DNA of 27,336 nucleotides, taken from positions 1 to 27,336 of the IMG/VR virus record IMGVR_UViG_3300020472_002167; one strand, 5' to 3'. The notes beneath the pieces are model-generated. The model saw only the letters and a program-made list of their open reading frames with translations. It was not told where the DNA came from and ran no database searches. Positions 8,349 to 22,875 of this stretch are shown piece after piece (the stretch's first letter is position 1; every line of letters starts with the position of its first letter). The position numbers and the translations under genes were made by a program. This DNA is from a virus.

Positions 8349-9131
8349 ATGGCAAATTATAGATCATATCGAAAAGTAGTTGCTGATCAAGTTCCAAGTA
8401 ACGAGATCAGCGTAGGAAAGCTCGTGCCTGGATCGGGTCCTTCATATTGTGTAAAACACATTTATGGAACTCCAAACTCATGTACTCCAGGCTGTTGTTG
8501 CAACTGGCAAGTTCCTTCTGGTACAACCAGAATAACATGGGAACTGTGGGGTGCAGGTGGAAATGGACATGGACATTGTTCATGTAACAGATGTCAGCAC
8601 TTTAGAGGTGCTGCAGGTGGAACTTATAATACTAAGACTATCTCTACAACAGGTGGTTGTAACTACTCTGTATGTGCAGGTGGTGTTTATAGGTGTTGCT
8701 CAAGAGAGTGTAACGGTTGCACAGGTTGTTCATCCTATGTGAATGGTCATAACCTAAGTAACTTCTGCGCCAGAGGTGGTGCAAGGGGTTGTGCAAACGC
8801 TGACTGGTCAGTTCAGTGTACTTCTACTTGGTACTGCTGTGTTGCGCCAGGTGCTTGGGGCGGAGATTTCGCAATGGCTCCTCACCAGACAGGTTGGTCT
8901 GGTCACTGGGATTGTCAGTGCGGTCCGTCAATTACACAAGAATGTATGTCTGGTGCTCCATTCTTAGGAATGGGTTCTGAACATAGATCTGTTCACTGCT
9001 GGTCACGTTGCGGTTGTTGGACTGCTCCTTATGCGACTGGTGGACAGGGTGCTATCAACCAATACTGTGGTCGCTGCTGCGGTCAGGGTGGCCAGGGAGG
9101 ATCTGGTATCGTTAGAATTACTTATTTGTAA
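8349..9131 (+). CDS. Cysteine-rich, glycine-rich fibre-like protein, copy 1
   Basis: The product is 260 residues with about 29 cysteines. The N-terminus (YRSYRKVVADQV) matches short N-termini of cyanophage fibre-like proteins. Next come CTPGCCCNW, then VPSGTTRITWELWGAGGNG, which is the usual entry to glycine-rich fibre domains. CSCNRC, CCSRECNGCTGC and GCSSYVNGHNLSNFCA (residues 126-141) follow, then RCGCW and a glycine-rich ending GGQGGSGIVRITYL. I infer an extracellular fibre or tail-tip adhesin in which a glycine-rich fold has been loaded with cysteines. Whether these form disulfides or bind metal cannot be read from sequence. An AAGG at 8336-8339 is a weak ribosome site. First of three tandem paralogues. 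Confidence 0.8.
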   Translation: MANYRSYRKVVADQVPSNEISVGKLVPGSGPSYCVKHIYGTPNSCTPGCCCNWQVPSGTTRITWELWGAGGNGHGHCSCNRCQHFRGAAGGTYNTKTISTTGGCNYSVCAGGVYRCCSRECNGCTGCSSYVNGHNLSNFCARGGARGCANADWSVQCTSTWYCCVAPGAWGGDFAMAPHQTGWSGHWDCQCGPSITQECMSGAPFLGMGSEHRSVHCWSRCGCWTAPYATGGQGAINQYCGRCCGQGGQGGSGIVRITYL

Positions 9132-9142
9132 TCGGAGAACAA

Positions 9143-9940
9143 ATGGCCAGTTATTCATCTTACAAAAAAATTAATGGAGATACCTTTGCAAGTGGTATCT
9201 TAGGAGCTGATAAGTTCAGTTCTTCTCCGACTTCCACATATGGTGTTAAGTGGGTATATGGAACCATGTGTAGGTGCTCGCCAGGTTGCTGTTGCAACTG
9301 GACAGTACCAACGGGAGTAACAAAGCTTTGGATCCAATTATGGGGTTCAGGTGGTAATGGTGCAGGCGCTTGTTCCTGCAACAGATGTCACCACTATGGT
9401 GCATCAGGCGGTGGATACTATAACAGTCAAATAGTTTCCTCAAATGCTGGGTGTACTTATTCGGTATGTGCTGGTGGAGTTTATCCATGTCTCTCAAGAG
9501 AGTGTTACGGATGTCAAGGATGTTCGTCGTATGTAAATGGACATAACCTAAGTAACTTCTGTGCTCAAGGTGGTAGACGCGGAGACGCGAATACTTCTTG
9601 GTCTACTGAGTGTACTTCAACATGGTCATGTTGTGCGGCCCCTACTCAATGGGGTGGACAAATGGCACTTGGTAACCATGCTCATGCATGGACTGCTTCT
9701 CGTTATGATACTTATAGAGGATGGTGTCACTGCTATAATCAGGGCATAACACCAACGTCTGCTCCATTGATCGGAACCTTTGTACAACAATCTACACGAG
9801 GATGTTGGATCCGTTGTGGTTGCTGGGTTGTTCCTTATGGTAATGGTGGAATGAACGCTATGTCAAATTATTGTGGCTCAGGCCATTGTGGACAAGGTGG
9901 TACTGGTGGTGGCGGATTAGTTAAAATTACATACTTCTAA
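9143..9940 (+). CDS. Cysteine-rich, glycine-rich fibre-like protein, copy 2
   Basis: The product is 265 residues with about 25 cysteines and is collinear with copies 1 and 3. It has CSPGCCCNW with VPTGVTKL, CSCNRC, LSRECYGCQGC and the invariant GCSSYVNGHNLSNFCA, again starting at residue 126. RCGCW and a GQGGTGGGGLVKITYF ending follow. It is the most diverged of the three: Cys is lost in the Y-P-C-L-S-R segment where the others have CCSREC. The start is supported by GGAG at 9134-9137. It begins 11 bases after copy 1, so it is probably on the same transcript. A structural adhesin role is inferred. Confidence 0.8.
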   Translation: MASYSSYKKINGDTFASGILGADKFSSSPTSTYGVKWVYGTMCRCSPGCCCNWTVPTGVTKLWIQLWGSGGNGAGACSCNRCHHYGASGGGYYNSQIVSSNAGCTYSVCAGGVYPCLSRECYGCQGCSSYVNGHNLSNFCAQGGRRGDANTSWSTECTSTWSCCAAPTQWGGQMALGNHAHAWTASRYDTYRGWCHCYNQGITPTSAPLIGTFVQQSTRGCWIRCGCWVVPYGNGGMNAMSNYCGSGHCGQGGTGGGGLVKITYF

Positions 9941-9954
9941 CAGCAGGAGAAACG

Positions 9955-10746
9955 ATGGCTACGTATTCATCATACAAAAAAATTAAGAACGACCAGATAG
10001 TCGATGCGACGATTCCATCTTCTGCTCTTGCTTCTGGTGCGTTCGCAAACTGGTGTGTCAAGTGGGTTTATGGTACACCTAACTCCTGTACTCCTGGCTG
10101 TTGCTGCGGATGGCAGGTTCCTTCAGGTGTTCAAAGAATTAACTTCGAGTTATGGGGTGCTGGAGGAAACGGACACGGATCATGTACTTGTTCCAGATGT
10201 CATAACTGGTTTGGTGCAGGTGGAGGATTCTATAATACAAAGACTATTGGAACAGTTGCGGGTTGCACTTACACAGTTTGTGCAGGTGGTGTATACCGTT
10301 GTTGTTCACGAGAATGTACAGGATGTTACGGATGTTCATCCTACGTTAACGGACATAACCTCAGTAATTTCTGTGCCTTAGGTGGTTCAAGAGGTTGTGC
10401 AACTAACTCTTGGCCAAGTTCATGTTACTCTCAGTTCGAGAGGTGTTGTGTACAACCTGGCGCATGGGGTGGAGATTTTGCAATGGGTAACCATGCAGGA
10501 ACCTCATATAAACAGGACGGATGGGACTGCCATTGTTACTATAACAAGGGTCATCCTACAGGTGCTCCATTCATCGGAACGTTGGGCGTTAGTTACGCTG
10601 TTAGACGTTGTTGGATGCGTTGTGGTTGTTGGACTGTTCCTTACGGTCACGGTGGACAGGGTGCTATTTCTACCTATTGTGGAAGTGGTCACTGTGGACA
10701 GGGTGGACAAGGAGGATCGGGTCTCGTTAAGATCACATTTGTTTAA
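9955..10746 (+). CDS. Cysteine-rich, glycine-rich fibre-like protein, copy 3
   Basis: The product is 263 residues with about 27 cysteines. Same architecture as its two upstream neighbours: YSSYKKIKNDQI at the N-terminus, CTPGCCCGW, CTCSRC, CCSRECTGCYGC, GCSSYVNGHNLSNFCA at residue 126, RCGCW, and a GGQGGSGLVKITFV end. It is closer to copy 1 than to copy 2 in most cysteine positions. AGGAGA at 9945-9950 supports the ATG. The gene is followed directly by a strong rho-independent terminator, so the triplet forms the end of a transcription unit. Role inferred as for the other copies. Confidence 0.8.
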   Translation: MATYSSYKKIKNDQIVDATIPSSALASGAFANWCVKWVYGTPNSCTPGCCCGWQVPSGVQRINFELWGAGGNGHGSCTCSRCHNWFGAGGGFYNTKTIGTVAGCTYTVCAGGVYRCCSRECTGCYGCSSYVNGHNLSNFCALGGSRGCATNSWPSSCYSQFERCCVQPGAWGGDFAMGNHAGTSYKQDGWDCHCYYNKGHPTGAPFIGTLGVSYAVRRCWMRCGCWTVPYGHGGQGAISTYCGSGHCGQGGQGGSGLVKITFV

Positions 10747-11663: not shown

Positions 11664-12323
11664 ATGTTTGAAGTAAATTATCAATCAGACGCACACGTTC
11701 ATAAACTTTACGATCATTATAAGTATAATGATGTTGGAATGGTCTGGAGAAAAGTTTTTATAGTAGATAATTTCTATTTAAATCCAAATGAGGTTCGAGA
11801 ATACGCTTTATCGTGTGAACCAAAAGAGGAAAAAAGTTATACTGGAGATTTGATAGGTAAAAGAGTATGGGAACAACAAATAGAAATGCAAAAAAATCTT
11901 AAACCATTGTTTAAGGGATTGTGTACTCTGGATCAATGGACAAATATTGAATGGGATGAAGATGATTTCAATACAAAATGGGATGATATGAAGTTTATGG
12001 TCAATGTTAGTTACGGATCAGACTTCGCTAAGAGACAAGATGTATATAATGGAGATGTAGTTACATATCATAAAGACAATACAAAATATAAATGGGCTGC
12101 TTTAGTATATTTGAATAAGGATGAAGAATGTGATGGAGGTACAAAGTTCTATCCATTCAAAGAAGATTTGCCTATGTTTAAACCAAGTGAAAGAGATGCC
12201 TTTACATGTGAGATGAAGTATAATAGAATGGTATTATATGAATCAAGACATACCCACGGAGCTATATTAAATAGGGATATGTTTCAAACAAAACCCCGTC
12301 TAACACAGGTGTTTTTTATGTGA
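11664..12323 (+). CDS. DUF6445-like putative Fe(II)/2-oxoglutarate-type oxygenase
   Basis: The product is 219 residues. FIVDNFYLNPNEVREYAL (residues 32-49) matches the family opening 'hydrophobic-D-[DN]-F-x-x-x-P-x-x-V-R'. Then come YHKDN (135-139, a possible H-x-D pair), ALVYLNKDEECDGGTKFYP (146-164), NRMVLYESRHTHG (187-199) and the ending R-L-T-Q-V-F-F-M. This layout is that of DUF6445, a cupin-fold family resembling prolyl hydroxylases; the enzymatic activity is not established to my knowledge. Such genes recur beside tryptophan halogenases in bacteria, as here. No Shine-Dalgarno is visible and the gene follows a terminator. A related gene lies at 22147-22875 on the other strand. Confidence 0.65.
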   Translation: MFEVNYQSDAHVHKLYDHYKYNDVGMVWRKVFIVDNFYLNPNEVREYALSCEPKEEKSYTGDLIGKRVWEQQIEMQKNLKPLFKGLCTLDQWTNIEWDEDDFNTKWDDMKFMVNVSYGSDFAKRQDVYNGDVVTYHKDNTKYKWAALVYLNKDEECDGGTKFYPFKEDLPMFKPSERDAFTCEMKYNRMVLYESRHTHGAILNRDMFQTKPRLTQVFFM

Positions 12324-12380: not shown

Positions 12381-13646
12381 ATGCGATCGAAGGCCTTTTT
12401 CATAAATGGTGGAGCCGGAAGAGTTATATGCTCCATACCTGCATTTGAAAAACATGTAGAAGAACATCCCGAAGATGATTTTATTATCATTTGCGAGGGT
12501 GGAACAGATTTTTTTAAAGGACATCCTACATTAGATGGTAGGGCTTATGACAACTGGCATAAGAATGTCTTCCAAGAACATATTAAACACAGAGATTGTG
12601 TAAGTCCAGAACCATATAGAGTTTGGCATTACTATAATCAGAAGTGTACTCTTGCACAGGCATATGATATTGAAATTAATGGTTTAGATGAACCAAGAGA
12701 ACTACCTAAACCAACACTTAATCTTAATAAGACTGAGGTTATTAATGGATATAATGTCGTACAGGAAGTTAAATCAGTAACTAAAAAGGATAAGATTCTT
12801 GTCATTCAACCGTTTGGTCGCGGGGTTGAACAGTATGGAGAGTTTATTGCAGATCCTACCTCAAGAAGTTTATCATTAACAAATACTGTTGATATCATCA
12901 ATAATCTTAAAAAGGATTATGGTGTTATTGTTATGAGTGAAATTCACTTCCCAGTAGAAGAGGATGAAGAGAAGTCTCGATATAAAATTGCAAGACCTCA
13001 AATTCAAGATATGCGTCAATGGGCTGCTGTAATTGATGTTGCAGATCACTTCTTAGGATGTGATAGTATGGGTCAACATATGGCAAGAGCTCTTGATGGA
13101 ACTGCAACTGTAATTGTTGGTTCAACATATCCAGAGAATATAAGTTATCCAGGCCATAAAGATTTTGATATCTATGATGTTGGTCTTGATAAGAGAGAAT
13201 ATGCTCCTATTAGAATATCTCAAGACGAAAGAGTTGACAGATATAATGATGAAGCATTAGAAATGACTCAATCACAAGTCAAAGAAGTTTGTGATCTTGT
13301 TAGAAAGAGGATGGGTAAATCCAGAACATTCACTGGTACATACGTTCCTGTTCAACAAACAACACAATCATGTGATACAAGTGGTAATATGCAGCCTCAG
13401 CCTGTTGCTCCTACAAATGCACAGAGACCTGATATTAATCAGTTGCAAATGCAACAACCAAATTCTGGCCAAGCTCCATCAATGAATATGGTTCAAGGTA
13501 GAGTTAAACCACAATCACCAACTCCACACTTCACTTTGGATAAACCAAAGTCTATGAAACCTTCTAAAGGATTTAAGCAGGAAGTGAAAAGTTTATTAAA
13601 GACAGATAAACCTTCTATTACTATAGAGAAAAAGAGTGAGGCTTGA
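12381..13646 (+). CDS. GT9 / heptosyltransferase-like glycosyltransferase with disordered C-terminal tail
   Basis: The product is 421 residues. FINGGAGRVICSIPAFEKH near the N-terminus resembles the GT-B N-domain start of ADP-heptose:LPS heptosyltransferases (GT9: G-D-x-x-x-x-x-P-A). Residues 138-147 contain ILVIQPFGRG, in place of the family's second-domain entry strand. Residues 221-259 (ADHFLGCDSMGQHMARALDG, then VIVGSTYPENISYPGH) match the GT9 signature D-x-x-[IV]-[GS]-x-D-[ST]-[GM]-x-x-H-x-A-x-A-L, then G-x-T-x-P. The last 100 residues are Gln/Pro/Lys-rich low-complexity sequence, unusual for this family. GAGGTG sits seven bases before the ATG. First gene of a ten-gene overlapping operon that also encodes ADP-heptose enzymes, which supports a heptosyl donor. 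Identity to a specific transferase is uncertain. Confidence 0.6.
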   Translation: MRSKAFFINGGAGRVICSIPAFEKHVEEHPEDDFIIICEGGTDFFKGHPTLDGRAYDNWHKNVFQEHIKHRDCVSPEPYRVWHYYNQKCTLAQAYDIEINGLDEPRELPKPTLNLNKTEVINGYNVVQEVKSVTKKDKILVIQPFGRGVEQYGEFIADPTSRSLSLTNTVDIINNLKKDYGVIVMSEIHFPVEEDEEKSRYKIARPQIQDMRQWAAVIDVADHFLGCDSMGQHMARALDGTATVIVGSTYPENISYPGHKDFDIYDVGLDKREYAPIRISQDERVDRYNDEALEMTQSQVKEVCDLVRKRMGKSRTFTGTYVPVQQTTQSCDTSGNMQPQPVAPTNAQRPDINQLQMQQPNSGQAPSMNMVQGRVKPQSPTPHFTLDKPKSMKPSKGFKQEVKSLLKTDKPSITIEKKSEA

Positions 13647-13648
13647 TA

Positions 13649-15463
13649 ATGACACAATGGATTGCAGCAATCGCCAGAGGTCATAACTCTGGTGTATGTC
13701 TTCTTGCGGATGGCGAATTAGTTTTTGCAATAGAAGAAGAAAGACTTTCAAGAAAAAAATATGATGGTGGGCCTTATGCTTCTATGGTCAAGATTCTTGA
13801 CTATACTGATAGGTTAGATTATCTTGCGATTGCACATACGCAACCATTAAATGAAGCTGGAACTGTTGATTTCACAGGAGAACCAGTCTATGTTGGTTTA
13901 GCCAGAAAGTTAGGTCTCATTGATAGAAATCAGGACATTTATAATCATCCTCAAGTTACTGATTTAAGTCATATCCATCATAAGTTACATGCTTCATGTG
14001 CTTTCTTTAGATCTGGATTTGAATCTGCTGTTGCTGTCATTGTAGATGGCGCAGGAACTTATATTCCTATGCAGATTGATGGTGAACAGGAGATGACATG
14101 GGAATTGGAAAGCATGTTTACATGCAAGTATCCAGATGAGTTCAATACCATTTACAAACATCAAGGAGGACGAGGACCTTGGGCTTCTGGTAGTTTACCT
14201 AATTTTGGTGCAGGAAGAGAAGGTGAAAAAGATAATACTTATGAACTTGTCTTAGATGATTCTGCTGGTATAGTTAAAACATATGAGGCTGCAACACAGT
14301 ATTGTGGATGGGCTCCTATTGAAGCTGGTAAGACAATGGGATTATTCCCATATGGAAAGAATAGTTATAAGTTTCCTGATCTATTCACAGATTATGAAGG
14401 GATTGCTGCATGGAAAACTGCCAATAGAGATTTAGTTGTACCAACTTATCCTAATGGTGCTGTTATTAACCAAGGTAGATTCCCATACTTACATACTCCA
14501 GAGGAATATACTAAAGGAGATGATAGACCAGACATAACTAAATTAGATAATCGTAGAGACATTGCTTATGCAGTCCAGACAGAATCTCAACAGATGGTTC
14601 TGGATCTTATTCGTAAAGCAGTTGACATGACAGGTAATACAAATGTAGTATTATCAGGTGGATATGGATTAAATTGCGTTGCTAATTATTGGTATCTTGA
14701 TCAATTAAAAGGTGAAGGTATTAATTTATATGTGGAACCAGTCAGTAATGATGCTGGAACTGCAATTGGAGCAGCTTACTTACAACACCAATTGGTGACG
14801 AAAGATACGACTGTTAAACCACATTTACATGATTTGTATACTGGTCCTTCATACGAATATGATAGGGAGTATATTCAAGCACTTGCAGAACATTATGGTG
14901 CATCAAGAATCTTTGAATCTAACCATAAGGATGCAGTAGAACTTATTACTAATAAGAATATTGTTGCATTGTTCCAAGGTAAATCAGAAGCAGGCCCTCG
15001 TGCATTAGGTAACAGGTCTATTCTCTATGATGCTCGTGATCCAAATGGAAAAGATTTCGTTAACACAGTAAAACGTCGTGAATACTTTAGACCATTTGCA
15101 GGTTCTATTTTAAAAGAACATGTACATGAGTGGTTTGATCTTCGTGGTATGGATGAAACTCCGTTCATGATGTATGCAGTTAACTGTCAAGAAGGTATTC
15201 AAGAAAGGATACCTGCAATCATTCATGTGGATGGTACGTGTAGGATTCAAACTGTTACCGAAGATGTTAATAAAAACTATTACGATATTATTCAAGAGTA
15301 TTATAATCAAACAGATTGTCCAATTATATTCAACACATCCTTTAACCTTGGCGGAGAACCTCTTGTAGAGACTCTGGATGACGCTCTGAGGACTCTTGCG
15401 AACAGTTTGATAGAATACCTCTATTTGCCAGAATACGGTCTTATGATCGAGGTGAAGAACTGA
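13649..15463 (+). CDS. Carbamoyltransferase (NodU/CmcH/TobZ family)
   Basis: The product is 604 residues, the full family length. It transfers carbamoyl from carbamoyl phosphate through a carbamoyl-adenylate to a hydroxyl of a sugar or antibiotic. Diagnostic motifs are in order: EEERLSRKK (29-37), HHKLHA (110-115, metal-binding region of the Kae1-like domain), VDGAGTY (132-138), LSGGYGLNCVAN (335-346), SNDAGTAIGAA (366-376), GPRALGNRSIL (449-459), KRREYFRPFAG (475-485), HVDGTCRIQTV (526-536) and NTSFNLGGEPLV (562-573). I chose the ATG at 13649, preceded by GAGG at 13638-13641, over a TTG at 13643. It begins two bases after the glycosyltransferase gene and overlaps the halogenase gene (TGATG). 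The substrate is unknown; a heptose is plausible from context. Confidence 0.9.
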   Translation: MTQWIAAIARGHNSGVCLLADGELVFAIEEERLSRKKYDGGPYASMVKILDYTDRLDYLAIAHTQPLNEAGTVDFTGEPVYVGLARKLGLIDRNQDIYNHPQVTDLSHIHHKLHASCAFFRSGFESAVAVIVDGAGTYIPMQIDGEQEMTWELESMFTCKYPDEFNTIYKHQGGRGPWASGSLPNFGAGREGEKDNTYELVLDDSAGIVKTYEAATQYCGWAPIEAGKTMGLFPYGKNSYKFPDLFTDYEGIAAWKTANRDLVVPTYPNGAVINQGRFPYLHTPEEYTKGDDRPDITKLDNRRDIAYAVQTESQQMVLDLIRKAVDMTGNTNVVLSGGYGLNCVANYWYLDQLKGEGINLYVEPVSNDAGTAIGAAYLQHQLVTKDTTVKPHLHDLYTGPSYEYDREYIQALAEHYGASRIFESNHKDAVELITNKNIVALFQGKSEAGPRALGNRSILYDARDPNGKDFVNTVKRREYFRPFAGSILKEHVHEWFDLRGMDETPFMMYAVNCQEGIQERIPAIIHVDGTCRIQTVTEDVNKNYYDIIQEYYNQTDCPIIFNTSFNLGGEPLVETLDDALRTLANSLIEYLYLPEYGLMIEVKN

Positions 15464-16881
15464 TGGAGGTTGTTATTGTTGGAGGAGGTACGGCTGGTTG
15501 GTTATCAGCTGCTTCATTTTTACATGAACTTCCTTTTGCAAATATAACTTTAATCGATAAAGAGGAATCAACTCCAGTAAGTGTTGGTGAAGCAACTCTT
15601 ATAGGTTTTGAGGGATTCCTTAAAGATAAGTGTGGATTTCCACCAGAGGAATATCTGAGGAATATGGATGTAACACTTAAGGGTGGTATATTATTTCCAG
15701 ATTGGGGAATGAATGGTAATGCTCCTTGGCATCCATTTACTTTTCCAAATATAGTTGACAAATGGTCTACTACTCAGAATGAACCACTTGAAACTCAGAT
15801 GGCTTTATACAATTGCAGTATGAGGAATAGTATTGACAGGACTCAATTAGATGGTGGTTATGCTCTTCATGTTGATTGTTTAAAACTAATAGAATATATT
15901 AAAGCAAAGATAGAACATAAGATAACTTATATACAGTCATCAGTTAAAAATATTAGAAGAAATCAGGGTATTAAATCTTTGTTCTTACAGAATGGAACAC
16001 AGGTTAGAGGGGATGTTTTTATAGATTGTACTGGTGTTGATAGTCTTCTTAAAGATAAAAGAAGAAAAGTAGATCTAAGTGATCGTTTATATGTTAATAC
16101 TGCAGTTGCAGGACATGTTGATTACATTGAAAGACATAGAGAGTTACGTCCATTTGTTGTATGTCATGCTGTAGATGATGGATGGATATGGAACATTCCT
16201 CTTAAATCAAAGATAGGAACAGGTTTAGTATTCAATAGAAATATCACTGATCCAGAAGATGCTAAGAAGATTCTTAGTAATTACTGGAATGGAAGAACAG
16301 ATGAACTAAAGATTTTAAATTGGGAACCTTACTATGATCTAAATCAATGGGAGAAGAATGTTATTTCTATTGGTTTATCTGCAGGGTTCATAGAACCACT
16401 TGAAAGTACAGGTATTGCATTGATTCTTGAAGGTATATCTACAGCTGCTACTAAATTAAAAACAGGATATTTTAATGATTATGATATTGATTGTTATAAT
16501 AGTTGGATGGTATCAATGTTTGAATGTTGTACGGACTTTGTGAATATGCATTATTCAAAAGTAACCAAGGACACTCCTTTCTGGAATTATGTTAAAGATA
16601 ACTATAAGATGTCAGATGCTCAAGAATTCTATCTTGATAATATGAAGTCTTCTGATCCTTCTGTTGTAGATGGTAAGGATCATTTCTTTGGTGGTGCCAA
16701 TTGGATACATTGGTTAATCATGTTGGGGTATCCTATCAGACCAAAAGATTATCATATATGTGAATGGAACGATCCTACTGGATGGAAATCTATGCACCAT
16801 TCAACACTTCGTAAAGATCTCACTATTGAGAACTCTGAAAACTTTATTGATCATATGACCTTTGTGGATAATTACCTATGA
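15463..16881 (+). CDS. Flavin-dependent halogenase 1 (tryptophan halogenase family)
   Basis: The product is 472 residues and predicted to use FADH2, O2 and halide to halogenate an electron-rich substrate through HOX. Visible hallmarks: FAD-binding GGGTAGW (7-13), GEAT (42-45), catalytic-lysine segment TLKGGILFPDW with K73 (equivalent to PrnA Lys79), WIWNIP (241-246, the W-x-W-x-x-P halogenase signature) and IGLSAGFIEPLESTG with E314/S315 (PrnA Glu346/Ser347). All key residues are present, so it looks active. It needs a separate flavin reductase, not seen in this window. A homologous marine viral halogenase (VirX1, from a cyanophage) has been reported to prefer iodide; whether that applies here is unknown. 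Overlaps its neighbours at both ends. Confidence 0.9.
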   Translation: MEVVIVGGGTAGWLSAASFLHELPFANITLIDKEESTPVSVGEATLIGFEGFLKDKCGFPPEEYLRNMDVTLKGGILFPDWGMNGNAPWHPFTFPNIVDKWSTTQNEPLETQMALYNCSMRNSIDRTQLDGGYALHVDCLKLIEYIKAKIEHKITYIQSSVKNIRRNQGIKSLFLQNGTQVRGDVFIDCTGVDSLLKDKRRKVDLSDRLYVNTAVAGHVDYIERHRELRPFVVCHAVDDGWIWNIPLKSKIGTGLVFNRNITDPEDAKKILSNYWNGRTDELKILNWEPYYDLNQWEKNVISIGLSAGFIEPLESTGIALILEGISTAATKLKTGYFNDYDIDCYNSWMVSMFECCTDFVNMHYSKVTKDTPFWNYVKDNYKMSDAQEFYLDNMKSSDPSVVDGKDHFFGGANWIHWLIMLGYPIRPKDYHICEWNDPTGWKSMHHSTLRKDLTIENSENFIDHMTFVDNYL

Positions 16882-18401
16882 AAAGAGTAGAACATCTTAC
16901 TATTGTTGGTGGTGGTAGTGCTGGTTGGTTATGTGCTGCTTACTTTGCCAGAAGATCTAATTTAACTAAGGCTTCTCCTCAAATGGCTTGGGGTGATAAA
17001 CTTAAGGTAACTATTATTGATAAAGAAGTTCCTGATCGTATTGGTGTAGGTGAAGCAACTATATTAGCCTTTGGTAACTTCATGGGTGAGATGGGATTTG
17101 ATGATGATTATTGGCAAGAAAAGGTTGATGCAATTCATAAAGGTGCTATAGTATTTGAAGGGTGGACTACACCAGAACATGAGATGTGGCATCCCTTTGG
17201 ATTCACTGATATCACTTATAATATTAATGAAGCTGGTAATTATGATGTAGCTCCTCTATGGGATATATGGAGTGTATATAAAGATAAGTTTGATCTTAAA
17301 GAGTCTCAAGCTTTATACACTACTGCTATGGCAAATAGAGTAGAACCCAATAACATGAATGTCTATGCTAACCATTTGGATGCAGGTAAGTTAGCAGAGT
17401 TTTTAAAAGAGGAATCTATAAATCATCCATGTCTTACTCATATCGAATCAGATGTTACAGAAGTACATTGGCATGACAATGGAGAAGTTGATTATCTGAA
17501 ACTAAAGGACGGTAGAGAACATAGATCCGATCTCTATGTTGATTGTACAGGATTTAAGAGGTTACTTAGTAGAGATCCTAAGAAGGATATGGTTGATTTG
17601 AGTGATAGATTGTTTACTAATACTGCTATTGCTGGACCTATCCAATATCAAAATAGAGATATTGAGATGCATCCTTGGACTCATGCAAAGACAGTTGATT
17701 GTGGTTGGATATGGGTCACACCAATAACATCAAGGATTGGTTCTGGATTAGTCTTTAATAGGGACATTACTGATCCAGAGCATGCTAAGGATGTATTCGT
17801 TGATTATTGGGATAATAGAATTAAGAAAGAAGATCTAAGAACTTTGAAATGGGATCCAGTTAAAGTAAAGAATGGTTGGGTTGGTAATGTAGTATCAATA
17901 GGACTATCTGCAGGGTTTATAGAACCACTTGAGAGTACTGGACTTGCTTTAATAGTTAGAGCTATAGAGACTTTAGAAGAGAATATAAGAGGTGATTGGT
18001 ATGATGAGAATGAAATTGCTCTCTTCAATGCAAGAGTGAATGGTGCTTATGAAAACTCCATAGATTTTGTTAATATGCATTATGGATTTACCCAGAGAAC
18101 TGAACCTTTCTGGCAACACGTAAGAGATACATATCAAAAATCTGAACTCTATAAGTTCTGGGAATCTCAAATGAAAGATCCTGACCATACTACCAGACAG
18201 ACACAGAAGTTTGGATTCTTTGGTGGACATAATTTTGCAGTATGTATGGCTCAATGGAATCCAGATTTATGTGTTAGAAAGACATACTTTGATCATTGTA
18301 AAGATAATTTGGAAAAGAATATGCAACACTTCTATAAGCAGTTGCAAGAGAATATAGACACATCAGTACCACTTAAAGAAAAACTTCCTTGGTTAAAATG
18401 A
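16878..18401 (+). CDS. Flavin-dependent halogenase 2 (tryptophan halogenase family)
   Basis: The product is 507 residues and clearly homologous to the preceding gene but well diverged, so this is not a recent duplication. Hallmarks are GGGSAGW (11-17), GVGEATILAFG (56-66), IHKGAIVFEGW with catalytic K88, WIWVTP (277-282), RIGSGLVFNRDITDP shared with halogenase 1, and IGLSAGFIEPLESTG with E352/S353. It has an insertion near residues 28-40 and a longer C-terminus. The ATG overlaps the previous stop (ATGA at 16878-16881), indicating translational coupling. Two tandem enzymes may act on different positions or substrates, or work as a heteromer; the sequence does not say which. No flavin reductase is visible. 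Confidence 0.9.
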   Translation: MKRVEHLTIVGGGSAGWLCAAYFARRSNLTKASPQMAWGDKLKVTIIDKEVPDRIGVGEATILAFGNFMGEMGFDDDYWQEKVDAIHKGAIVFEGWTTPEHEMWHPFGFTDITYNINEAGNYDVAPLWDIWSVYKDKFDLKESQALYTTAMANRVEPNNMNVYANHLDAGKLAEFLKEESINHPCLTHIESDVTEVHWHDNGEVDYLKLKDGREHRSDLYVDCTGFKRLLSRDPKKDMVDLSDRLFTNTAIAGPIQYQNRDIEMHPWTHAKTVDCGWIWVTPITSRIGSGLVFNRDITDPEHAKDVFVDYWDNRIKKEDLRTLKWDPVKVKNGWVGNVVSIGLSAGFIEPLESTGLALIVRAIETLEENIRGDWYDENEIALFNARVNGAYENSIDFVNMHYGFTQRTEPFWQHVRDTYQKSELYKFWESQMKDPDHTTRQTQKFGFFGGHNFAVCMAQWNPDLCVRKTYFDHCKDNLEKNMQHFYKQLQENIDTSVPLKEKLPWLK

Positions 18402-18796
18402 AAACAGTATTTGTTAATGGAACATTTGATATTCTTCACCCAGGCCACATGCAACTATTCAAGGTTGCAAGGTCTTTAGGTGATAGAGTTATCTGTGCAA
18501 CTGATAGTGATCAGAAGATAAGAGAAGATAAACCAGATACGGGTAAACCGATCAATAATCTTCCTTTTAGGATTACTATGTTAGAATCTATCAAATACAT
18601 AGATACAGTCTTGTGGTTTAATACTCGACAAGAACTATCTGATTTGATACAGATGTATCGTCCTGATATTTTATTATTAGGTGATGATTGGAGAAATGGA
18701 GTTGTGATTGGTCAAGAGTTTGCTAAAGAGGTTAGATTCTTTCCAAGAATACACATGTATTCAAGTACAAAAGTAATAGAAAAGATACGGTCATGA
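18398..18796 (+). CDS. rfaE2: D-glycero-D-manno-heptose 1-phosphate adenylyltransferase (HldE C-terminal domain, stand-alone)
   Basis: The product is 132 residues. VNGTFDILHPGHMQLF (6-21) contains the nucleotidyltransferase HxGH motif (HPGH, 14-17), followed by VARSLGDRVI and TDSDQKIREDK. The ending YSSTKVIEKI corresponds to the S-T-T-x-x-I-x-x-I motif of this family. It matches RfaE2/HldE-C better than TagD-type cytidylyltransferases, chiefly in GKPINNLPFRITMLESI. In the pathway it makes ADP-D-glycero-D-manno-heptose from heptose 1-phosphate and ATP. In E. coli it is fused behind the kinase; here the two are separate genes in reverse order, overlapping by four bases. I use the ATG at 18398, overlapping the halogenase stop (ATGA), rather than a TTG at 18389. 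Confidence 0.8.
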   Translation: MKTVFVNGTFDILHPGHMQLFKVARSLGDRVICATDSDQKIREDKPDTGKPINNLPFRITMLESIKYIDTVLWFNTRQELSDLIQMYRPDILLLGDDWRNGVVIGQEFAKEVRFFPRIHMYSSTKVIEKIRS

Positions 18797-19554
18797 AACA
18801 AGTATTAGTTATTGGAGATTCTTGTGATGACGTTTATATTTTTGGTCATTGTAAACGGTTAAGTCCAGAGTATCCTATTCCAGTATTAGATAAAGTAAAT
18901 AATGAGATTCATCCTGGCATGGCAGCTAATGTTGATGCAAATCTCAATGCTCTTGGAATAGCAACAAATCTGTTGACACAGAGAGAAAGGATAACTAAAA
19001 CAAGATTTGTAGATATCAATACTAAGCAACAGTTATTGAGAATGGATACCACACCAAAGGTTACTCCTTTGACTGGTTCAGAAGTCAAGATGGCAATGAT
19101 TCATACGTCTTATGATGCTTTAGTAATATCAGACTATGACAAGGGTTTCATTGGATATCAAGAATTAATAGTTCTTTGTGAGAATTTTCCAGGCCCAATC
19201 TTTGTAGATACAAAGAAAACAAAATTGTTTCAATTAGATAATGTATTCTGGAAGATTAATGAGAAAGAATTTAATGCCTTAGATAAAGAAAAAAGACCAA
19301 ATGAGACTCATCTTATTGTTACTCTTGGATCTAAAGGTGTACGATGGGGTGGTATAATATATCCAGCAAAACCTGTTACTGTTTTTGATGTTTGTGGTGC
19401 AGGGGACACTTTCTTAGCTGTCCTTGTATATGAATTCTTAAAGGATAATGATATGAAGAAAGCTGTAGATGTTGCTAATAGAGGTGCTGCAATCACAGTA
19501 CAACATCCTGGCACATATAAACTAACTCAAAATGATCTTGAATCATTGTTCTGA
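18793..19554 (+). CDS. rfaE1: D-glycero-D-manno-heptose 7-phosphate kinase (HldE N-terminal domain, PfkB family)
   Basis: The product is 253 residues, shorter than the roughly 315-residue kinase half of E. coli HldE. PfkB features: a first signature GMAANVDANLNALG (42-55), RFVDINTKQQLLRMD (71-85, strongly like the RfaE1 segment T-K-x-R-x-x-x-x-x-Q-Q-x-x-R-x-D), ISDYDKG (112-118), and the catalytic second signature DVCGAGDTF (199-207) with Asp205 as the likely base. It phosphorylates heptose 7-phosphate at C1. Translationally coupled to the adenylyltransferase upstream (ATGA) and to the next gene downstream (TGATG). The reduced length suggests loss of peripheral elements rather than truncation, since both signatures and the C-terminal helices are present. 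Confidence 0.8.
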   Translation: MKQVLVIGDSCDDVYIFGHCKRLSPEYPIPVLDKVNNEIHPGMAANVDANLNALGIATNLLTQRERITKTRFVDINTKQQLLRMDTTPKVTPLTGSEVKMAMIHTSYDALVISDYDKGFIGYQELIVLCENFPGPIFVDTKKTKLFQLDNVFWKINEKEFNALDKEKRPNETHLIVTLGSKGVRWGGIIYPAKPVTVFDVCGAGDTFLAVLVYEFLKDNDMKKAVDVANRGAAITVQHPGTYKLTQNDLESLF

Positions 19555-20090
19555 TGTACCCCGTTACTTTTCATAATGTATTAGAACCTAAGAAATTCCT
19601 CTCATTGAATGAAGAGTTTGAGGAGGGTTGGTGTCTTAATAATTCATCAGGGCTTGATGGTGATAATGTTACATGGGGTTTTAAAGATCCAAGCGATACC
19701 TTGATTTTTTATGATGTTGCTACTATAATCAAATTAAAGATACAAAAGGTTATTAAAAGACCTCTTAGATTCTTTGTAATGCATGTTAACGGACAGACTA
19801 CAGGACAAGGCAATCTTATTCATACTGATTTTGAATGTCCTTGGGTGTGGTCTTTTGTATTGTTTACTCATATGGATTGGGATATTCAATGGGGTGGAGA
19901 ATTTGTCTGTACAGAGCCAAATACTAAAGAACATAAGTATGTTCCATGTCTATCAAATACTGGAGTTTTAATTCCTGCCCATTGGGAACATTATGGACAA
20001 TCTCCTAATGTATTCACCAGTAGACTAAGAACTTCTCTTAGGTTCAGTTATTGTGACGATGATAAATGGGAGTTGTTTAATGCCAATTAA
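19554..20090 (+). CDS. Putative 2-oxoglutarate/Fe(II)-dependent oxygenase
   Basis: The product is 178 residues. A double-stranded beta-helix pattern is visible: LRFFVMHVNGQTTGQ (71-85), IHTDFE (89-94, the H-x-D iron ligands H90 and D92), WGGEFVCTEPN (113-123), NTGVLIPAHWEHYGQSP (135-151, distal His probably H146), and RTSLRFSYC (159-167) carrying an Arg for 2-oxoglutarate. This is the prolyl-hydroxylase-like layout common in cyanophages. The substrate is unknown. It sits between the heptose kinase and the HAD phosphatase, so a sugar intermediate or a protein are both possible. The start overlaps the kinase stop. Confidence 0.7.
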   Translation: MYPVTFHNVLEPKKFLSLNEEFEEGWCLNNSSGLDGDNVTWGFKDPSDTLIFYDVATIIKLKIQKVIKRPLRFFVMHVNGQTTGQGNLIHTDFECPWVWSFVLFTHMDWDIQWGGEFVCTEPNTKEHKYVPCLSNTGVLIPAHWEHYGQSPNVFTSRLRTSLRFSYCDDDKWELFNAN

Positions 20091-20439
20091 AACTATGAGA
20101 TACTGTGTTGACATAGATGGTACTATCTGTACCCCAACTGTTGGTAGGGATTACCACAAGGCTCAACCATTTAAGGATCGAATTAAGACCCTAAATAAAT
20201 TGTATGATGAAGGAAATTATATTATTTACTTCACAGCTCGTGCGATGGGTAGGTTCTCAGAAGAGGAACACCAAATTGCACAGGCAAAGGCTTCAGCAGT
20301 TCTATTTGAACTTACCACAAAGCAACTCAATGAATGGGGTGCAAAGTACCATGAATTAATCATGGGTAAACCTCATGCAGATTACTTTATTGATGATAAA
20401 GCTTGGCCTGATCATGTTTTCTTTAATGATAGACGATGA
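20080..20439 (+). CDS. Small HAD-family phosphatase, candidate GmhB-equivalent
   Basis: The product is 119 residues. HAD motifs: DIDGT (11-15, nucleophile D11 and acid D13), FTAR (51-54, motif II Thr52), GKPHADYFIDDKA (96-108) with Lys97 (motif III) and D105/D106 (motif IV). It is a minimal, cap-less HAD of the kind found in capsule and sugar biosynthesis clusters. By position between the split HldE genes and an HldD-type gene, it may remove the C7 phosphate of heptose 1,7-bisphosphate (the GmhB step). It lacks enough specific sequence to prove that. I chose the ATG at 20080, preceded by GGGAG at 20068-20072, giving an 11-base overlap with the oxygenase gene. ATG 20095 and GTG 20053 are alternatives. 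Confidence 0.7.
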   Translation: MPIKTMRYCVDIDGTICTPTVGRDYHKAQPFKDRIKTLNKLYDEGNYIIYFTARAMGRFSEEEHQIAQAKASAVLFELTTKQLNEWGAKYHELIMGKPHADYFIDDKAWPDHVFFNDRR

Positions 20440-20792
20440 CATTGAATACCGTAAAATTTGTTTCTAAGGGTTGGGGATTTGAGAAATGGATCGCCAATAA
20501 TAAACAGTATTGCGGTAAATTATTGTTTATCGCAAAGAACAAAAGATGTTCTTGGCATTACCATAAGTTAAAGAGAGAAACATTTTATGTCCAGTCAGGA
20601 CGTATTAAATTGTGGTATGGTAAGACAGATGACAGAGATGCTTCAAGTACTACTATATTGGAACCTGGCGATAACTTCCATGTACCAAGGGGTTTGAGAC
20701 ATCAGATGCTTGCTATAGAAGATACAGAACTATTTGAGTTCTCTACACAACATTTTGATGATGATAGTAATAGAGTAATTGCTGGTGACTGA
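20436..20792 (+). CDS. Single-domain cupin, possibly sugar-related
   Basis: The product is 118 residues. Cupin motif 1 is SWHYHKLKRETFYVQSG with metal ligands H41, H43 and E48; motif 2 is PGDNFHVPRGLRHQ with H89. The start, KGWGFEKWIANN, with the HxH-E spacing, recalls the cupin domain of type II phosphomannose isomerases and similar small sugar-isomerase-like proteins. Function could be isomerisation or epimerisation of a sugar phosphate, or a dioxygenase-like reaction. The heptose pathway here lacks a recognisable GmhA isomerase, so a role at that step is conceivable but unsupported. The ATG overlaps the HAD stop (ATGA). Confidence 0.7.
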   Translation: MTLNTVKFVSKGWGFEKWIANNKQYCGKLLFIAKNKRCSWHYHKLKRETFYVQSGRIKLWYGKTDDRDASSTTILEPGDNFHVPRGLRHQMLAIEDTELFEFSTQHFDDDSNRVIAGD

Positions 20793-21369
20793 TTGGCCGA
20801 CAAAGTTAACTGATCTTATTGTTGAGTTACCTCTCATTGAGGATGCAACTTGTGATGCGATGGTTGCTTGGTTTCATGAGAATGTAGATAGACAAGTTGT
20901 AGGTGCAGTAGGTGGTACAGGAGAACAGACAGTTAATACTGAATGTTGTAAAGCAACTGATATTGTTGTTAAACCATCAGATAAAATATTTCATTGGATG
21001 TCACAGATATCGCACTATGCATATAGTGAGTATCTAAACAGAGCGCCTGGACCTACTACAGATATTGTCTTTAATGACTTTGCTATAAGATCATACCAAC
21101 CTAATGATGGATACTTTGTTGAGCATACAGATCAACATGCAGGTGGTAGTGTTAATAGGGTGTTTGCTATAATAATGTATTTAAACACCGTAGATGAAGG
21201 TGGAGAAACAGAGTTCCCCTACTATGATGTAAAGATTAAACCAGAGAAAGGTAAGGTATTATTATTTCCTGGCAACTATTTGTTCCCACATAAAGGCAAC
21301 AAACCTATGTCGGGTGTAAAGTATATTGCTACGTCTTGGGTTGAGTTTCAAGAAATTCCTTCACAGTAA
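20785..21369 (+). CDS. 2-oxoglutarate/Fe(II)-dependent prolyl-4-hydroxylase-like oxygenase
   Basis: The product is about 194 residues. The C-terminal half is a clear P4H-type domain: FAIRSYQPNDGYFVEHTDQH (99-118) with iron ligands H114 and D116, IMYLNTVDEGGETEFP (130-145), IKPEKGKVLLFPGNYLFPHKG (centred on 151-171) with distal His169, and GVKYIATSW (177-185) with Lys179 for 2-oxoglutarate. Such enzymes hydroxylate proline or other residues of proteins, or small molecules; the target is unknown. There is no ATG near the expected start. GTG 20785 is chosen, with TTG 20779 as an alternative; either overlaps the cupin gene. The last gene of the + strand operon, its 3' end overlaps the convergent HldD-type gene by 41 bases. 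Confidence 0.8.
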   Translation: MTDWPTKLTDLIVELPLIEDATCDAMVAWFHENVDRQVVGAVGGTGEQTVNTECCKATDIVVKPSDKIFHWMSQISHYAYSEYLNRAPGPTTDIVFNDFAIRSYQPNDGYFVEHTDQHAGGSVNRVFAIIMYLNTVDEGGETEFPYYDVKIKPEKGKVLLFPGNYLFPHKGNKPMSGVKYIATSWVEFQEIPSQ

Positions 21370-22150
21370 TAAAGTCATAATCAACCCACTTCATATCTGC
21401 ACAAGTATATTTTTGGTACTTTCCTTTTAAGTGATCTGGGAATGGTATCATTTTTATCTTGACTTCTTCTTTGTCTGCTACTGCTTTTGCAACATCATAG
21501 AAAGATATTGGGTTACCTGTTCCTATATCATATATTCCACTGGGAGCATCATTGTTCATAACAATGTTGACTATATCAGTTACACATACAAAGTCTCTTA
21601 AGAACTGATCAGATCCTTCAAAGAGTTTTATTTCTCCAGTTTCACGAGCTTGTTGTGTGAACTTTGATACTGGACTTGCTTGATCTACTTTAAGTTTATC
21701 TTCTTCTCCTGTTCCATATACATTGAAGTATCTAAACCCCTGTATATACCTGAACTTATCAAGATTATCTTGTACGTAGTAATCTATTATAAGTTTTGAT
21801 ATTGCATATTGATTTAATGGATTTATCTTCTTAGTTCTTTTGGTTTGATTACCATATACTGATGCTGATGATGCATACTTAACTGGTATCTGATGTTCTA
21901 TTGCATGGTAGAGTATCCATGCTGTGAAGTCTTGATTGTAATGTGAGATCTTCATCCAGTTTGGTTCTACCGTGGATGACATTGCACCATTGTGTATGAT
22001 TAAAGTGACTCTTTCCCAATCATCAAACTTAGCAAGCCATTTCCAACAGTCATCTTTATCAATACAGATGACATGTTCTTTCATCTCTTCTTCAACATAT
22101 CGTTTAAAATGAGAACCGATGAATCCTTTATGTCCTGTTATTAATATCAT
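21329..22150 (-). CDS. hldD: ADP-L-glycero-D-manno-heptose 6-epimerase-like NAD(P)-dependent epimerase
   Basis: The product is 273 residues, an extended SDR. GHKGFIGSHF (6-15) is the Rossmann loop; ASSASVYG (93-100) and Y115-x3-K119 are the catalytic elements. FRYFNVYGTGE (139-149), LFEGSDQFLRDFV (176-188), IYDIGTGNPISF (206-217) and IPFPDHLKGKYQKYT (235-249) are close to HldD-specific segments, particularly the last. It converts ADP-D-glycero- to ADP-L-glycero-D-manno-heptose. It is somewhat shorter than E. coli HldD (310). The minus-strand ATG overlaps the stop of the DUF6445-like gene. Other nucleotide-sugar epimerases remain possible, but the neighbouring split HldE supports this call. 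Confidence 0.8.
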   Translation of the reverse strand: MILITGHKGFIGSHFKRYVEEEMKEHVICIDKDDCWKWLAKFDDWERVTLIIHNGAMSSTVEPNWMKISHYNQDFTAWILYHAIEHQIPVKYASSASVYGNQTKRTKKINPLNQYAISKLIIDYYVQDNLDKFRYIQGFRYFNVYGTGEEDKLKVDQASPVSKFTQQARETGEIKLFEGSDQFLRDFVCVTDIVNIVMNNDAPSGIYDIGTGNPISFYDVAKAVADKEEVKIKMIPFPDHLKGKYQKYTCADMKWVDYDFITVKEFLETQPKT

Positions 22151-22875
22151 CCGTATGGTTGACCTTCTGTCTTAGCAAAGTGTAGTGGTAGGAAGAATAC
22201 TTGAACTAATCTATAGTCATCTCCTTCAAAGAATCCTTCTTTATCATATGATCCATGCAATACATGATCTGGATAGAAGATCATTCTATTGTATTTCATA
22301 TCCGCAAGGTGTTCCAGTTTCCAAGGACCTATATCATCAGCAACATAATCTTCATCCCATATACCTTCTTGGAATGGATTAACAGTTGTCATACCTTTGT
22401 ATGAATAGAATCCAGTTCCACCTTTACATTCTTTACCTTTATTCAAATATATTAATCCTGCCCAACCCCTACTCTTATCGTCTCCTTCTCTTGGTATATC
22501 TACGTGTGGTAACTTAACTCTGTCTGGTGATTGAGTTACATTCACAGAGAAGGGTACATTCCTACAGGACTGTTCAAAGTGCGGTTGTTCTTGCATTGTT
22601 AGTCCGTAACAATTCAATGCAACATCTTTCCATACTTCTCCCAGATGATCCAAGTCCATATTCATGTCTACTCTTGATCCAGGCAGACATCCACATACTC
22701 TTTTGTTTTTTGTTGGAGGACATCTCAGAGCAAGATTTCTAACCTTATCTGGATTCTTATAAAAATTATCAATATAGATTATTGGATGTTCTTCCCATCC
22801 TATTAATTCAACTCTTGCACCCAACTCATCGTTTATTGCAAAAGTTTCTTCCTCATCAATAAAATACTTTTTCAT
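22147..22875 (-). CDS. DUF6445-like putative oxygenase, second copy
   Basis: The product is 242 residues. IIYIDNFYKNPDKVRNLALR (32-51) is the family opening. LPHVDIP gives a possible H-x-D pair, followed by WAGLIYLNKGKECKGGTGFY, YNRMIFYPDHVLHGSY and the ending R-L-V-Q-V-F-F-L. The layout matches the product of 11664-12323, though the two are well diverged. The C-terminus extends beyond the usual end (HFAKTEGQPYG). It is first of a two-gene minus-strand unit with the HldD-type gene and diverges from gene 13 across a 40-base gap. No Shine-Dalgarno is visible upstream of its ATG. Substrate unknown; the family tends to travel with halogenase genes. Confidence 0.65.
   Translation of the reverse strand: MKKYFIDEEETFAINDELGARVELIGWEEHPIIYIDNFYKNPDKVRNLALRCPPTKNKRVCGCLPGSRVDMNMDLDHLGEVWKDVALNCYGLTMQEQPHFEQSCRNVPFSVNVTQSPDRVKLPHVDIPREGDDKSRGWAGLIYLNKGKECKGGTGFYSYKGMTTVNPFQEGIWDEDYVADDIGPWKLEHLADMKYNRMIFYPDHVLHGSYDKEGFFEGDDYRLVQVFFLPLHFAKTEGQPYG

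Follow-up and report, generated by a model that had tools for sequence, protein, structure and literature searches.

In bacteria, the ADP-L,D-heptose pathway consists of GmhA, HldE (or HldA plus HldC), GmhB, and HldD, and the GDP-D-glycero-alpha-D-manno-heptose pathway consists of GmhA, HddA, GmhB, and HddC; the ADP-beta and GDP-alpha routes have no steps in common other than those of the isomerase and the C7 phosphatase. To our knowledge, the first committed heptose step has always been assigned to a SIS-type GmhA. Phage-encoded heptose genes have already been published as cyanophage LPS genes (PMC3037559, PMC7378029), and T4-GC 304, 305, 307, and 308 were described as co-occurring LPS genes in cyanophages with the function left open (Sullivan et al. 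2010, PMC3037559). The heptose block itself is not new; the addition made here is an answer to its missing GmhA.

The window analyzed (a virus record of 27,336 bases, taken whole) is a fragment of a marine T4-like cyanophage, the host being assigned from its relatives, of which the closest named ones are the Synechococcus phages S-SSM7 and Sf-FS3. Tail fibre genes are followed by three Gly/Cys-rich proteins, a modification block, and then the neck genes gp13-gp15; the heptose set is located among the tail genes and adjoins the sugar-transferase-like GT302. The features are as follows:

8349-9131, 9143-9940, and 9955-10746, +: three paralogous tandem Gly/Cys-rich tail-associated proteins (Gly_rich_2)
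11664..12323, +: 2OG-Fe(II)/DUF6445-like oxygenase adjoining GT302 (PF13640/PF20043)
12381..13646, +: GT302 (phrog_8954, T4-GC302), a putative (heptosyl)transferase of GT9-like type whose C-terminus is a low-complexity tail
13643..15463, +: 303, NodU/TobZ-type O-carbamoyltransferase (PF02543 and PF16861)
18398..18796, +: 304, heptose-1-phosphate nucleotidyltransferase of the HldC/HldE-C type with some likeness to TagD
18793..19554, +: 305, heptose-7-phosphate kinase (TIGR02198, E 3.4e-41)
19554: oxygenase-like gene, assigned from its relatives
20080..20439, +: 306, BcbF-like HAD phosphatase (TIGR01689 EcbF-BcbF, E 2e-8)
20436..20792, +: 307, cupin (PF07883), candidate S7P (sedoheptulose 7-phosphate) isomerase replacing GmhA
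20779 and 22147 (-): oxygenase-like genes (PF13640/PF20043)
21329..22150, -: 308, HldD-type ADP-heptose 6-epimerase (TIGR02197, E 2e-61)

The five open reading frames named in the first-pass annotation were all present where it had placed them, and its families held for the kinase, the nucleotidyltransferase, the HldD epimerase, and the GT9-like gene; the HAD protein, however, does not belong to the GmhB family. The block is far beyond chance because it recurs in no fewer than 31 named records of cyanophages and in over 100 viral contigs. Also within the modification block, two neighboring genes of the flavin-dependent tryptophan-halogenase family (15463-16881 and 16878-18401; PF04820) were found, whose targets might include aromatic residues in tail proteins. 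The T4-like late promoter ATAAATA occurs in 4 copies in the window, fewer than by chance, and none lies between 10.8 kb and the cassette; late expression of the cassette, as the first-pass annotation supposed, may still be the case and gains no support from this motif count.

Kinase, nucleotidyltransferase, epimerase, and HAD phosphatase

Compared with the bacterial ADP-L,D-heptose pathway, the same kinase, adenylyltransferase, and 6-epimerase families and the same order of chemistry were recognized, whereas a cupin stands for the SIS-type GmhA, a BcbF-like HAD stands for GmhB, the kinase is compact and split from 304, and all enzymes are divergent; the curated-family scores of 304, 305, and 308 were all below the equivalog cut-offs. 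For 305, TIGR02198 was the best family (141 bits; cut-off, 345), with profile positions of about 67-97 lacking; HldA (4e84) was matched with E 1e-13, and the SPExPxPV and GAGD motifs were found, the latter in 133/133 relatives, so the heptose-7-phosphate kinase named in the first-pass annotation stands as a divergent member. As for 304, TIGR02199 was best (E 5e-27, 94.5 bits; cut-off, 181.5), and GxFDxLHxGH was present in 112 of the 120 relatives; the proposed adenylyltransferase is retained with the qualification that TagD was a close second (70.7 bits) and the best match in PDB. The nucleotide joined by 304 is probably of the ADP type, mainly because HldD is present. The epimerase was borne out most clearly: 308 matched TIGR02197 (208 bits; cut-off, 275) and E. 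coli HldD (1eq2, E 6e-40), HldD being best by a wide margin, and Y115, K119, and K154, at the catalytic Tyr/Lys positions of HldD, were invariant, which gives the SDR Tyr-x3-Lys and a further catalytic Lys (K178 in HldD).

A small HAD phosphatase, as proposed at 20080, is indeed encoded (119 aa), and it is BcbF-like instead of GmhB-like: its NCBIfam matches were limited to the EcbF-BcbF and BT0820 HAD models with no match to the GmhB family, and its profile matched the BcbF-like PDB entries 9iqw (E 1e-17) and 1xpj (E 2e-13). Residues D11, D13, T52, K97, and D106 were invariant. We propose 306 as a heptose-1,7-bisphosphate 7-phosphatase, a non-orthologous stand-in for GmhB.

The GenBank products named phosphoheptose isomerase that could be checked were mostly HAD 306, including L081:16658-16993, L083:12722-13066, and L084:12710-13033. 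We considered 306 as an isomerase and rejected it, since its motifs are those of a HAD protein and SIS was not matched. GenBank labels the cupin beside these HADs cysteine dioxygenase or nucleotidyltransferase, and it does the same for 307 in the published T4-GC 302-308, where 306 is again phosphoheptose isomerase; these labels on HAD 306 and the neighboring cupin are likely misannotations.

Cupin 307 and the isomerase step

No SIS_2/TIGR00441 (GmhA) match was found in the window, a 27 kb fragment to which this absence applies, in agreement with the first-pass annotation. SIS_2 was also absent from nine further records (eight complete phages), 50 viral records, and phage Bellamy; over all 63 records, SIS-type isomerases were absent from 62. 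The sole match, a weak one, adjoins the HldE-like kinase and HldD of SynMITS9220M01 itself (SynMITS9220M01_205, L220:967-1473). This phage carries the cupin as well, and its genome may encode two heptose routes in parallel. Among the control genomes, the one cyanobacterium (S. elongatus) gave no gmhA match. The pathway, called near-complete in the first-pass annotation, does lack the SIS-type GmhA and is nevertheless probably complete, since the cupin at 20436-20792, which that annotation did not list, is the best isomerase candidate.

The cupin has 118 aa and a single domain. In Foldseek with its AF2 model (pLDDT 87), the six best matches were D-lyxose isomerases, whereas many cupins tied at Z 14-15 in VIA-align; the fold alone is insufficient to fix the function. 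By hhalign, the lyxose isomerases were matched with 77% and E 2e-5; PF07385 missed the threshold (20.2 bits; cut-off, 20.8), and the PDB sequence matches were weak and mixed. In TsLI, an archaeal lyxose isomerase, the sugar and Mn are contacted by K62, H75, H77, K86, E88, H143, E156, and D163 (PMC8378251). All eight have a counterpart in the cupin (K28, H41, H43, K46, E48, H89, E101, and D108, respectively), as matched by spacing and through bacterial homologues because the TsLI sequence itself is not in the text of that paper. The K-H, H-H, K-E, and E-D spacings are as in TsLI, the distance from the second His to Lys is larger in TsLI numbering than in the bacterial lyxose isomerases, and across 26 sequences the eight residues varied little or not at all. 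The metal triad (HxH..E plus H) and the substrate residues (K, K, E, and D) are thus present. The phage motif YCGKLLx10HxHxxKxE compares with, for example, YAEKLLx10HxHxxKxE in the genuine lyxose isomerases (L186-L192). K-x12-HxHxxKxE was found in 120/120 viral cupins, 12 cupins of genome contigs, and 6/6 genuine lyxose isomerases, and in 0 of about 3,840 other open reading frames. Note that CapF, a UDP-sugar epimerase, likewise has HxHxxKxE in a printed alignment. The cupin fold, K-x12-HxHxxKxE, and the second His are common to 307, D-lyxose/D-mannose isomerase (PF07385; TsLI, 7nzo; YdaE, 2y0o), and L-ribose isomerase, and ExSx4D is common to 307 and the lyxose isomerases; 307 differs from these isomerases in its length of a single domain, an identity of about 25%, and the proposed substrate, a C7 sugar phosphate. 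As predicted from these residues, the active site of the cupin is that of a D-lyxose/D-mannose isomerase. A literature search for a cupin S7P isomerase found nothing relevant.

Nearly all viruses examined had the cupin as part of the gene core. The block 302-303-304-305-306-307-308 lies beside tail genes in S-SSM7, Sf-FS3, P-SSM2, and S-CAM1 (the published T4-GC 302-308 of S-SSM7, P-SSM2, and S-CAM1 being identical to that of the window in genes and order), and in S-SM2, P-TIM68, S-T4, and Sf-CH8 a core reduced to 304-305-306-307, to which 308 may be added, lies among glycosyltransferases. Of the loci 15 kb or longer, 43 had all seven genes, 20 had 304-307 alone, and 7 had 304-308. When viral loci were searched with the cupin only, 304 (53/57), 305 (51/57), and 306 (52/57) were found, usually within 3 kb; conversely, the cupin was present in 47/47 kinase loci with enough flank. 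Some of the contigs behind the locus counts are related or overlap, so that the Fisher p value overstates their independence. A heptose-7-phosphate kinase was present in 35/35 named phage records that have the cupin (31 HldE-type and 4 HddA-type; one of the two Bellamy records was looked at). A scan of genome contigs with the cupin yielded 12 contigs from metagenome-assembled genomes, several of which carry the phage block, so that the family is nearly viral-only.

Some cupins had no heptose kinase nearby (L138, L149, L160, L163, L172, L173, L174, and L178). The relative at L149:10001-10357 adjoins thymidylate synthase, and no heptose kinase was found in that record or in that of L160; these two cupins may have another role or be remnants. 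Near the cupin cassette, an RpiB-like isomerase domain forms the C-terminus of a longer protein (L163:3952-5109 and L138:5903-7069), which in L163 has an NTP_transferase-like N-terminus; relatives were seen in L076, L078-L080, and L086.

The kinase beside the cupin is not always of the same family. In Bellamy, SynMITS9220M01, AG-345-E15, and contigs L126 and L127, an unrelated HddA-type kinase was found; in the resolvable cupin viruses with no HldE-type kinase beside the cupin, a GHMP kinase was near or directly adjoining it, followed by NTP_transferase. The closest solved relatives of this GHMP kinase are D-glycero-D-manno-heptose kinases (3k85/WcbL-like, E 3e-74). After the swap, HAD 306 was still present in L126, L127, and Bellamy and weak in AG-345-E15; near the cupin of SynMITS9220M01 and that of L216, it was not found. 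Bellamy, SynMITS9220M01, and AG-345-E15 thus have HddA-/HddC-like genes of the GDP-heptose pathway around the same cupin, whereas the window has the HldA/HldC type. Because the cupin, with HAD 306 where it was found, was kept through the swap, we provisionally assign them, by gene content, to the shared isomerase and C7-phosphatase steps. In L126, L127, L216, L217, and L221, the HddA-type kinase, cupin, and HddC-like gene occur with GDP-mannose-dehydratase-like SDRs; these contigs likely encode a GDP-(6-deoxy)heptose route that their annotation does not name.

GT302 and the neighboring tail genes

The GT9 heptosyltransferases (WaaC, WaaF, and WaaQ) and the GT9-like autotransporter heptosyltransferases share with GT302 the C-terminal nucleotide-binding motif D-S-x-x-x-H-x-A. 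The single protein gave a weak GT9 signal; among its relatives, TIGR02201 (heptosyltransferase III) was matched by 14/14 (best, 3.5e-7) and PF01075 by 10/14, and hhalign with a roughly assembled GT9 set gave 92% and E 7e-7 in the C-terminal domain only. DSxGQH was present in 66/66 relatives. The Asp of the N-terminal GD is the catalytic base in WaaC; in 62 of the 66 relatives Arg was found at this site, as aligned by eye, the N-terminal half being unaligned by profile. The AF2 model (21-row alignment) had a pLDDT of 33, and the PDB profile search with GT302 gave no match. Of the GT9-like transferase proposed at 12381, the C-terminal motif was recovered and the rest of the GT9 signature was not; GT302 differs from GT9 in this Arg, Gln before His, its low-complexity tail, and a host group without reported LPS heptose.

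The occurrence of GT302, 303, and reversed 308 was confined to loci with tail/neck genes (39/45 against 0/33), and 303 accompanied 302 in 43 of the 45 long loci with 302. The three upstream proteins contain 9-11% Cys and 17-18% Gly; Gly-rich relatives lay upstream of 302 in 50/54 loci with 302, against 0/78 cassette loci without it. Because the contigs are related and in part overlap, both contrasts are to be read as association, not as independent events. The company of GT302, with tail/neck genes and near Gly/Cys-rich tail proteins, suggests virion glycosylation, and these proteins are plausibly the sugar acceptors. Since 303 travels with GT302 and 7-O-carbamoyl heptose is known from Pseudomonas LPS core (PMC7168646), carbamoyl-heptose is a reasonable guess. 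Nothing relevant was found in the literature on a phage virion heptosyltransferase.

Proposed pathway and alternative explanations

We infer the catalytic steps, the nucleotide, and the acceptor; the families of 304, 305, and 308, the cupin site, the linkage, and the absence of SIS were read from sequence. The Calvin cycle supplies cyanobacteria with S7P, and fructose-6-phosphate to mannose-6-phosphate is an exchange analogous to the one proposed. S7P would come from the Calvin/pentose-phosphate pathway of the host, fed by cyanophage transaldolase (talC; 15/16 cyanophage genomes, PMC3037559). Cupin 307 would convert it to D-glycero-D-manno-heptose 7-phosphate by a manno-type ketose/aldose exchange, kinase 305 would phosphorylate C1, HAD 306 would remove the C7 phosphate, 304 would add the nucleotide, and 308 would invert C6. 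GT302 would then transfer the heptose to the virion, where the Gly/Cys-rich tail proteins whose genes lie directly upstream are plausible acceptors, and 303 would perhaps O-carbamoylate the transferred sugar. We consider this self-sufficient route from S7P to ADP-heptose, with GT302 passing the sugar to the virion, fairly probable; the virion step, for which the chances seem about even, is its least certain part.

The same nucleotide-heptose pathway may instead serve the host surface through LPS or capsule remodelling (e.g., against superinfection), which is the published reading for sugar genes of cyanophages and pelagiphages (PMC3037559, PMC7029224). We hold this to be possible and rather doubtful: the core does lie among glycosyltransferases outside virion genes in S-SM2, P-TIM68, S-T4, Sf-CH8, Bellamy, and L076-L080, whereas the restriction of GT302, 303, and reversed 308 to tail/neck genes and the company of Gly-rich tail proteins speak against it, as does the cyanobacterial LPS reported to be without heptose (PMC4390846, PMC4377996), reviews that back the corresponding statement of the first-pass annotation for cyanobacteria. 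The position among virion genes favors the virion over the host surface as acceptor.

That the cupin is a CapF/RmlC-like epimerase of nucleotide sugars or a modifier of some other kind, with heptose 7-phosphate coming from the host, we consider unlikely. Its HxHxxKxE is shared by CapF, its fold by itself leaves the function unfixed, and a SIS gene is also present in SynMITS9220M01; however, all eight active-site residues of lyxose isomerase are present, and the cupin is kept in the 20 long loci with 304-307 alone and no strong SDR match to 308. A host-supplied GmhA is possible, although LPS reported without heptose (PMC4390846) and the missing gmhA match in S. elongatus argue against this source. 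It is improbable that the divergent PfkB, TagD-like, and SDR enzymes make a nucleotide sugar other than heptose: sub-cut-off scores, the TagD match of 304, and the profile segment of HldA lacking in the kinase could be so read, whereas HldD is the best family of 308 by a wide margin and the replacement kinase found elsewhere is independently a heptose-7-phosphate kinase (E 3e-74).

Taken in full, our proposal is that the cupin is a new and nearly viral-only class of S7P isomerase, non-orthologous to the GmhA that it replaces, that the ADP- or GDP-heptose pathways of these marine phages are thereby complete and host-independent, and that in the gene setting of the window a perhaps carbamoylated heptose is put on their own tail proteins; we advance it tentatively, at somewhat less than even chances. 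If it is true, the cupin would bring a new enzyme into a well-studied pathway, at its first committed step, and would explain the apparent lack of GmhA in cyanophage heptose cassettes, the name phosphoheptose isomerase on HAD 306 would appear to be wrong, and virion glycosylation with a sugar reportedly missing from cyanobacterial LPS would become testable for T4-like cyanophages.
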